From the NCBI RefSeq assembly GCF_004348525.1, contig NZ_SMKG01000010.1, positions 1-64,000 on the forward strand: a DNA stretch of 64,000 bases. The letters are read 5' to 3'. The notes under the pieces are model-generated. The model searched no databases, had not been told where the DNA came from, and saw only the letters and a program-made list of their open reading frames with translations. The DNA comes from Micromonospora sp. 15K316 (GTDB lineage: Bacteria > Actinomycetota > Actinomycetes > Mycobacteriales > Micromonosporaceae). Shown here one piece after another: positions 52,497 to 53,358 of the stretch (its first letter is position 1; every line of letters starts with the position of its first letter). Made by a program: the position numbers and the translations under genes.

Positions 52497-52541
52497 TGTC
52501 AACATGGGTTGACAGGCTCCCGTCGTCAACGTACGTTGACA
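52497..52541 (+). promoter_or_regulatory. Leaderless promoter with twin palindromic operators
   Basis: Two copies of an inverted repeat occur 27 bp apart: TGTCAAC-N4-GTTGACA (52497-52514) and CGTCAAC-GTAC-GTTGACA (52524-52541). The -35 TTGACA (52509-52514) is inside the first. With a 17-bp spacer the -10-like TACGTT (52532-52537) is inside the second, and the predicted start coincides with the ATG at 52544. The layout implies autorepression by the HTH protein encoded directly downstream. Confidence 0.7.
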
Positions 52542-52543
52542 GC

Positions 52544-52780
52544 ATGACTCAGGCGACGGAACTCGCGGCGGCCGCCGGCAGCCCCGACCCCCGGGTCGGG
52601 CTGCGTGCCGTCCGCGCGCTGCGCCGGCTGCTCGAGCGGCTGGAAGTGGTCCAGGTCGACAACGCCCGCCGACAGGGCTGGTCCTGGCAGGAGATCGCCG
52701 ACGCGCTCGAGGTCAGCCGGCAGGCGGTCCACAAGAAGCACGCCGGACGACCGGCGGTCCCCACCTCCTGGGAGGCGTGA
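52544..52780 (+). CDS. Small HTH regulator
   Basis: 78 residues. An amphipathic helix with a leucine-rich pattern (VGLRAVRALRRLLERLEVVQ), possibly a dimer interface, precedes a compact HTH at residues 46-68 (GWSWQEIADALEVSRQAVHKKHA). I chose the ATG at 52544 because it coincides with the predicted transcription start; the upstream reading from 52472 runs through the operators. It overlaps the ClpC N-domain gene by one base (TGATG). Short HTH proteins coupled to Clp N-domain proteins recur in actinobacteria and may control heat or protein-quality responses. The likely targets are the two palindromes in its own promoter. Confidence 0.82.
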   Translation: MTQATELAAAAGSPDPRVGLRAVRALRRLLERLEVVQVDNARRQGWSWQEIADALEVSRQAVHKKHAGRPAVPTSWEA

Positions 52781-53358
52781 TGTTCGAACGGTTCACCGAC
52801 CGCGCCCGCGACATCGTCCGCCGGGCGCTTGACGAGGCCCGAGCCGAGGGGCAACGGCCGGTCGGGACCGAGCACCTGCTGCTCGCCCTGCTCGCCGACG
52901 AGGCGAGCCTCGCCAGCCGGGTGCTCACCGAGGTCGGCGTCGACGCCGACGACCTGCGGGCCCGCATCCGCCGGCACGTCGAGACCGGTGGCGTCGGCCT
53001 CGGCGACGCCGACGCGGCGGCGCTGCGCGAGATCGGCATCGACCTGGCCGCCATCGTGGCCCGCGTCGAGGAGACGTTCGGCCCCGACGCGCTGCGCGAG
53101 GCGGCACCGGAGCCGCGCCGCCGCTGGCGCCGGCGCCGCTACGCCGGCGGTCCGTTCTCACCCCGGTCGAAGAAGGTCCTGGAGCTGTCGCTGCGGGAGG
53201 CGATCCGGCTGCGGCACCACCACATCGGCAGCGAACACATCCTGCTCGGTCTGCTCCGCGAGGGCCACGGCCTGGCGGCGCTGGTGCTCACCGAGGCCGG
53301 CGCCGACCTCGACGACCTGCGTCGCCGGGTGGAACAGGCGCTGCGTACGGCCGCCTGA
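52780..53358 (+). CDS. Clp N-terminal (R) domain protein
   Basis: 192 residues carrying two Clp R repeats, MFERFTDRARDIVRRALDEAR (1-21) and GTEHLLLALLADE, then FSPRSKKVLELSLREAIRL and GSEHILLGLLREG, separated by an Arg-rich linker. This is the substrate/adaptor-binding module of ClpC/ClpA without any ATPase domain. It could act as a stand-alone adaptor or decoy for ClpC, or as a partner of the HTH protein to which it is translationally coupled. GGGAGG lies just before the ATG. Confidence 0.88.
   Translation: MFERFTDRARDIVRRALDEARAEGQRPVGTEHLLLALLADEASLASRVLTEVGVDADDLRARIRRHVETGGVGLGDADAAALREIGIDLAAIVARVEETFGPDALREAAPEPRRRWRRRRYAGGPFSPRSKKVLELSLREAIRLRHHHIGSEHILLGLLREGHGLAALVLTEAGADLDDLRRRVEQALRTAA

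Follow-up and report, generated by a model that had tools for sequence, protein, structure and literature searches.

What does an actinomycete gain from keeping a free-standing copy of the ClpC receptor domain behind a small helix-turn-helix (HTH) gene whose start codon is crowded by palindromes? Such a pair lies in the 64,000-nucleotide stretch of Micromonospora sp. 15K316 DNA analysed here (the window), with a divergent Usp gene on one side and a diacylglycerol-kinase-like gene on the other; M. avicenniae DSM 45758 encodes the identical HTH protein. We propose, with a probability of about two in three, that the pair is a split homeostatic switch of the ClpC2 type, composed of an HTH autorepressor and a free decoy of the ClpC1 receptor, with ligand lifting the repression. 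The features on which this reading draws are as follows.

52497..52514, no strand assigned: putative operator site 1, TGTCAAC-ATGG-GTTGACA, with perfect arms, kept in 160/160 loci; its right arm overlays the -35 element
52509..52514, forward strand: predicted -35 hexamer TTGACA; the same place holds TTGACA in 111/160 loci and TTGACG in 47/160
52524..52541, no strand assigned: putative operator site 2, CGTCAAC-GTAC-GTTGACA, with one arm mismatch, kept in 160/160 loci; it overlays the -10 element
52532..52537, forward strand: predicted -10 hexamer TACGTT, at a 17-nt spacer from the -35 and 6 nt from the ATG at 52544
52544..52780, forward strand: HTH protein gene, proposed autorepressor, 78 aa (codons 52544-52777 plus TGA)
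52718..52741, forward strand: predicted recognition helix, HTH residues 59-66, from the AF2 model
52780..53358, forward strand: Clp_N (ClpC receptor-domain) protein gene, 192 aa, Pfam Clp_N E=1.1e-28, without an ATPase
52780..52989, forward strand: Clp repeat 1, residues 1-70 (F2, E31), from ClpC N-domain alignments
52996..53109, forward strand: conserved extra segment, residues 73-110, consensus ADAAALR.IGIDL.AIVAR.EE.FGPGAL
53149..53343, forward strand: Clp repeat 2, residues 124-188 (F126, E135, E152), from ClpC N-domain alignments

The two genes are separate open reading frames that overlap by 1 nt, the Clp_N ATG sharing base 52780 with the HTH stop codon, and the single HTH-Clp polypeptide that defines ClpC2 is absent from the window. 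The 1-nt overlap recurs in most of the Micromonospora loci listed, and in the relatives inspected the HTH stop precedes Clp_N. One diverged locus (L237) has a single frame running from HTH into Clp_N, with the end of the recognition helix altered, either by fusion or by frameshift. To gauge conservation we used 160 loci, comprising 79 with the window included, 80 relatives from species genomes (the best 80 of 583) and one Nocardia record, a set that was gathered by HTH similarity and is hence not independent, some of the 79 and the 80 sharing species. When up to 2 of the 12 arm bases were allowed to mismatch, every one of the 160 loci had two sites with a 4-bp spacer (n4 sites) in a span of 75 nt, and in each the start codon (159 ATG, 1 GTG) came immediately after site 2. 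By tblastn, Clp_N came next on the same strand in 159/160; in the exception (L151), the Clp_N reading frame looks frameshifted. The sequence-only reading had coupled a 78-residue HTH protein to a Clp N-domain protein lacking an ATPase and had made its case depend on conservation of the pair; the overlap and the 159 loci uphold a coupled, conserved pair. In Micromonospora marina (L102), Clp_N is only a remnant, and the HTH gene and both operators are intact.

Among 9,030 control windows of 75 nt taken elsewhere in the same loci, 21 held at least one site and none held two. We also took 132 divergent loci, any two of which differ at over 40% of 120 upstream positions. In these, the arm bases are 95-100% kept at the five places farthest from the spacer (GTCAA/TTGAC) and 78-93% kept at the spacer-side place; most flanking positions carry 0.1-0.3 bit, near random. 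The predicted hexamers are spaced by 17 nt in 81 of the 160 loci, by 18 nt in 77 and by 19 nt in 2, the distance from the -10 to the start codon is 5-8 nt throughout, and the -10 fits TANNNT in 149/160, most commonly as TATGTT (38). A central TA is found at site 2 in 149/160 loci and at site 1 in only 4/160, the pattern that a -10 element lying in site 2 would produce. Because only 6 nt separate the -10 from the ATG, a leaderless start is predicted, and the hth-clpN operon would be transcribed leaderlessly on the evidence of this geometry. A generic sigma-70 scan, which demands four matches to TATAAT (TACGTT has 3 of 6), reported no promoter at the operators. The earlier description of palindromes enclosing a -35 and a -10, with a promoter start that meets the ATG, is therefore borne out as geometry, around a promoter that is predicted and that the generic scan does not call.

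For the HTH protein, even the best Pfam matches fall short of their curated cut-offs (23.2 bits for HTH_11, where 25 is required), and the AF2 model is confident (pLDDT 90) and HTH-like, with helices at residues 2-11, 16-43, 48-55 and 59-66 and the helix-turn-helix at 48-66. Q60 and H63 are invariant in a 26-sequence HTH alignment (A1). A loose helix-2 signature fits 154 of the 160 loci, but for want of a fair control it carries no weight here. Foldseek returned nothing for the model at E<=0.001, and VIA-align gave Z values of about 5 for Fis and further HTH proteins, with top-ranked rows in these structure searches that were mostly DNA-binding proteins and none significant; such a Z points to a common arrangement and not to a relative. 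The ClpC2 structure 8ADA was not among the structure-search matches listed for the model, and the HTH profile matches it weakly (E=0.034). The HTH is kept over many genera. Of 396 genomes sampled across the phylum, 77 matched the split HTH at E<=1e-6 and 42 matched the fused N-terminus at the same cut-off, which alone does not establish gene structure. In a family sample the HTH was matched in 270/300 genomes at E<=1e-3, a count that takes in weak matches.

Clp_N, by comparison with ClpC N-domain structures, aligns as a ClpC receptor domain. It scores 99.5 bits against a Pfam cut-off of 20.7, in two stretches that correspond to two repeats, and matches Bacillus ClpC at 118 bits and mycobacterial ClpC1 at about 113 bits. 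Conservation of partner residues was scored on 154 of the 160 loci. The residues that align with the Phe pair and the Glu of the ClpC2 cyclomarin site, by way of the ClpC1 and ClpC2 of the same genome and with motif-based matching of residue numbers, are largely kept (F2 in 145/154, F126 in 146/154, E135 in 131/154); the fourth ClpC2 contact, a Gln, is without a counterpart. E31 (131/154) and E152 (143/154) are likewise kept, and we take them to be the counterparts of the phosphoarginine-site glutamates of Bacillus ClpC.

Between F2 and F126, Clp_N has about 46 residues more than the ClpC1 and ClpC2 of the same genome. Within this stretch, residues 73-110 are as conserved as the repeats themselves (2.79 bits per column, where the Clp repeats have 2.73 and 2.75 and the variable residues 51-72 have 1.94) and are followed by an Arg-rich linker. 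MAFFT sets ClpC1 residues ALESLGISLEGVRQQVEEIIG, the tail of ClpC1 repeat 1, under this segment, which may therefore have come from duplication of a repeat tail and not from insertion of foreign sequence. Residues 73-110 are also the best candidate for a contact with the HTH protein. Clp_N-like proteins are encoded as well by the Mycobacterium phages Myrna and Phabba and by viral contigs (L273-L286), with an identity of about 37% across 98% of Clp_N (E=1.1e-27 for phrog_35667); these could be ClpC decoys.

The closest precedent for the whole arrangement is ClpC2. Taylor et al. (2023, PMC10030653) described autorepression by mycobacterial ClpC2, which acts at CGTCAAC-n5-GTTGACG sites in a promoter that appears to be leaderless. 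In their account, sites of this kind recur in many species, cyclomarin A relieves the autorepression, and ClpC2 serves as a cyclomarin sponge that shields ClpC1 by competing for ClpC1 ligands. Ecumicin and ilamycin compounds are reported to bind ClpC2 without inducing it, with induction by desoxycyclomarin only (PMC12913811), indicating that ligand binding alone need not throw the switch. The genome of the window also encodes a fused, full-length ClpC2 (236 aa, contig C88, L009:964-1674), preceded by two perfect n5 sites with one base between the second site and the ATG. Under one scoring rule, n4 pairs were found at 160/160 split and 0/18 fused loci, and n5 pairs at 18/18 fused and 0/160 split loci; the fused set comprises the 18 of 20 loci with an assignable start, and the other two also show n5 sites. 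When spacers from n2 to n7 were tried at the split loci, those besides n4 turned up at a chance-like rate (n2 in 1 of 160; one n7 match at each of 20 loci and two at each of 3). Profiles of the split and fused HTHs align by hhalign at 96.7% (E=4.7e-10, 46 columns), a homology that covers the third helix and the HTH only, without the N-terminal helices. On this sequence evidence the window pair looks like a split, n4 variant of the ClpC2-type switch.

If so, which part of the switch reads the DNA? The authors of the ClpC2 study assign the DNA contact to the C-terminal Clp domain, where an R185A/R189A mutant binds DNA less well; they also describe weak, unspecific DNA binding by ClpC1 itself, and their dimerisation mutant and C-terminal domain alone support a need for the N-terminal dimer in high-affinity binding (PMC10030653). 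The counterparts of R185 and R189 in Clp_N are R139, kept in 146/154 partners, and R143, kept in 83/154. The solved ClpC2 N-terminal chain (8ADA) comprises residues 4-72 and was proteolysed in the crystal (PMC10030653). By alignment the predicted recognition helix begins just beyond this chain, a possible reason for the Clp domain having been credited with DNA binding. A model of fused ClpC2 has the equivalent helices at 58-76, with a mean pLDDT of about 60 over residues 71-80, part of the predicted recognition helix.

Diverged relatives of the HTH speak to the same question. Of 40 loci fetched, 39 (46-71% identity) were scored, L272 being dropped for want of an HTH at 1e-2. Thirty are accompanied by Clp_N and nine are not, as judged with a profile built from the 154 partners over a distance of 500 nt, and 26/39 have at least two n4 sites. 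Among the nine without Clp_N, eight have at least one n4 site and five have two or more; L251, L252 and L263-L267 are loci of this kind, with one or more n4 sites at the HTH relative and no Clp_N found within 500 nt downstream. In two loci of one genus (L223 and L224, genus g11), the HTH and two n4 sites are followed by a beta-lactamase-family serine hydrolase gene in place of Clp_N, which in L224 matches the Pfam beta-lactamase family at E=1.1e-24 and overlaps the HTH gene at its start. That the n4 operator mostly accompanies the HTH, even with another partner or none, makes the HTH, and not the Clp domain, its probable reader. The RelS-RelI paper already notes an HTH region in ClpC2 (PMC13284704), and that part of the argument is therefore not new.

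The sequence-only reading had also suggested that a genome scan might uncover other targets, such as clp or chaperone genes, an expectation that the scans did not support. In the genome of the window, six n4 sites have at most 2 mismatches, only the two hth operators have 0 or 1, and the other four equal the count of a reversed-pattern control (4). The n5 scan of the same genome found the two clpC2 sites as the sole perfect ones and five more with one mismatch, with a total of 100 against 42 in the reversed control. An exact n4 scan of 61 family genomes gave sites in at least 49. We opened 29 of these loci. Twenty-two proved to be HTH promoters, followed by Clp_N in 20 cases and by the beta-lactamase-like gene in 2; the rest were six other pairs and one single site (L225). 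The six other pairs (L204, L208, L211, L212, L213 and L222) have their sites 28 or 29 bp apart and end just before start codons of genes that by eye are alpha/beta-hydrolase-, FAD-monooxygenase- or DUF998-like. No HTH neighbour was found beside these six pairs, and one of their genomes (G002) gave no HTH match, suggesting that another repressor may use such sites. Clp_N partners apart, no clp or chaperone gene stood behind the site pairs of the 29 loci, the six other pairs included.

In the proposed split switch, the 78-residue HTH protein, presumably as a dimer, would bind the two GTCAAC-N4-GTTGAC operators over its own -35 and -10 and thereby repress the hth-clpN operon. Clp_N would be a free copy of the ClpC1 receptor that occupies unfolded or phosphoarginine-marked proteins and toxic cyclic peptides. 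A build-up of ClpC1 ligands would relieve the repression and yield more receptor, such that its level tracks demand and ClpC1P1P2 is protected or unloaded. For this to happen the HTH would have to meet Clp_N in trans, with ligand on Clp_N weakening DNA binding, a step that we infer from the fused cousin and that is the weakest link of the model. The gene pair, the operators, the promoter geometry, the predicted HTH and the kept ligand-pocket residues support the proposal at the level of sequence, and comparison between loci supports the HTH, not the Clp domain, as the part that reads the DNA. Autoregulation by the HTH, which the earlier reading had asserted, is well supported by these features and by analogy with ClpC2, whose autorepression has been measured (PMC10030653), and at the window locus it is putative. 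HTHs without Clp_N, together with L102, argue that repression itself needs no Clp_N.

That last point leads directly to a simpler account, in which the HTH does no more than hold down the operon, with dilution or some other cause bringing about induction, and in which Clp_N is a passenger outside the sensing, acting as a constitutive ClpC1 competitor or holdase. Such an account is at ease with n4-site HTHs that have no Clp_N or another partner, and with the intact operators of L102 beside a degraded Clp_N. Against it, Clp_N comes next in 159/160 loci and in 30/39 diverged ones, the genes overlap by 1 nt in most Micromonospora loci listed, and in ClpC2 a ligand on the Clp domain is reported to lift repression (PMC10030653). 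We consider this account possible, albeit unlikely. As for the role of Clp_N, decoy or sensor is more likely than adaptor. The known ClpC adaptors MecA, ClpS and McsB bind the ClpC N domain; an adaptor is a ligand of that domain and not a copy of it, and by this measure Clp_N, which aligns as the ClpC N domain itself (118 bits) and has no ATPase, is not one. The suggestion of the sequence-only reading that Clp_N is an adaptor that destroys the HTH protein is thus not sustained. The corresponding proteolysis switch, in which Clp_N would deliver the HTH to ClpC1P1P2 and repressor level would track protease load, is very improbable in our view: that an HTH and a ClpC-type domain are produced together fits it, but the receptor character of Clp_N does not, the C-terminal tail of the HTH varies between loci such that no shared degron is visible, and the ClpC2 precedent acts through ligand competition.

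Gene order, overlap and palindromes would equally suit a toxin-antitoxin-like module, with the HTH as antitoxin to a toxic Clp_N that jams ClpC1, and the antitoxin RelI is indeed related to the split HTH (profile match E=7.8e-5), its authors reporting similarity to the HTH region of ClpC2 (PMC13284704). Pfam and PADLOC gave no toxin family match for the pair, however, and the pair is kept over many genera. Type II toxin-antitoxin modules usually travel on mobile elements, though this does not strictly define them; the split HTH was matched in 0/50,697 phage records and 4/72,556 plasmid records, three of the four plasmids being larger than 1.8 Mb. HTHs without Clp_N also tell against a toxin partner, and we rate this the least probable of the accounts considered. 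The split switch can, on the other hand, be extended into a second, actinobacteria-wide alarm for attack on ClpC1. Clp_N would sense ClpC1-targeting peptides or damaged proteins and control the HTH in trans through its extra segment, the HTH would read DNA both here and in ClpC2, the 4- and 5-bp spacers would keep the two circuits orthogonal, and in some genera the regulon would reach possibly antibiotic-modifying enzymes. We regard this extension as doubtful, a shade more so than the passenger account.

Among the matches listed in the open-access literature, no report of a split HTH/Clp_N pair was found. ClpC1 is a drug target whose inhibitor cyclomarin is blunted by ClpC2, and a second, split decoy with its own operator, if true, would widen the defence of ClpC1 in actinobacteria. 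The pair is also a natural experiment on which part of the switch reads DNA.

Set beside the known systems, the pair most resembles the ClpC2 found in mycobacteria and other actinobacteria. Both have an HTH-type N-terminal part and a double Clp_N receptor domain without an ATPase, and in both, two GTCAAC/GTTGAC palindromes cover the -35 and -10 of a promoter running up to the start codon. They differ in that ClpC2 is one fused protein with n5 spacers, whereas the window encodes two overlapping genes with n4 spacers, and in the roughly 46 extra residues, conserved segment plus Arg-rich linker, between the repeats of the window Clp_N. The N-terminal domain of ClpC1 is similar to Clp_N in sequence and in the aligned pocket residues, but Clp_N is free-standing, without AAA+ modules and longer between its repeats. 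Mycobacterial ClpC3, which reviews name, is another small Clp protein and reportedly has its ligand site in common with ClpC1 (PMC10864484). The protein of PDB entry 8b9o ('Clp amino terminal domain protein'), which may or may not be ClpC3, differs from the split partner in one f2/g45 genome (43 bits). Finally, the RelI antitoxin Rv2664 and the window HTH are both small, related actinobacterial HTHs; the partner of RelI is the RelS toxin, with the toxin gene first, and its authors state that they saw no upstream inverted repeats (PMC13284704), whereas at the window locus the HTH gene comes first, behind its two palindromes.
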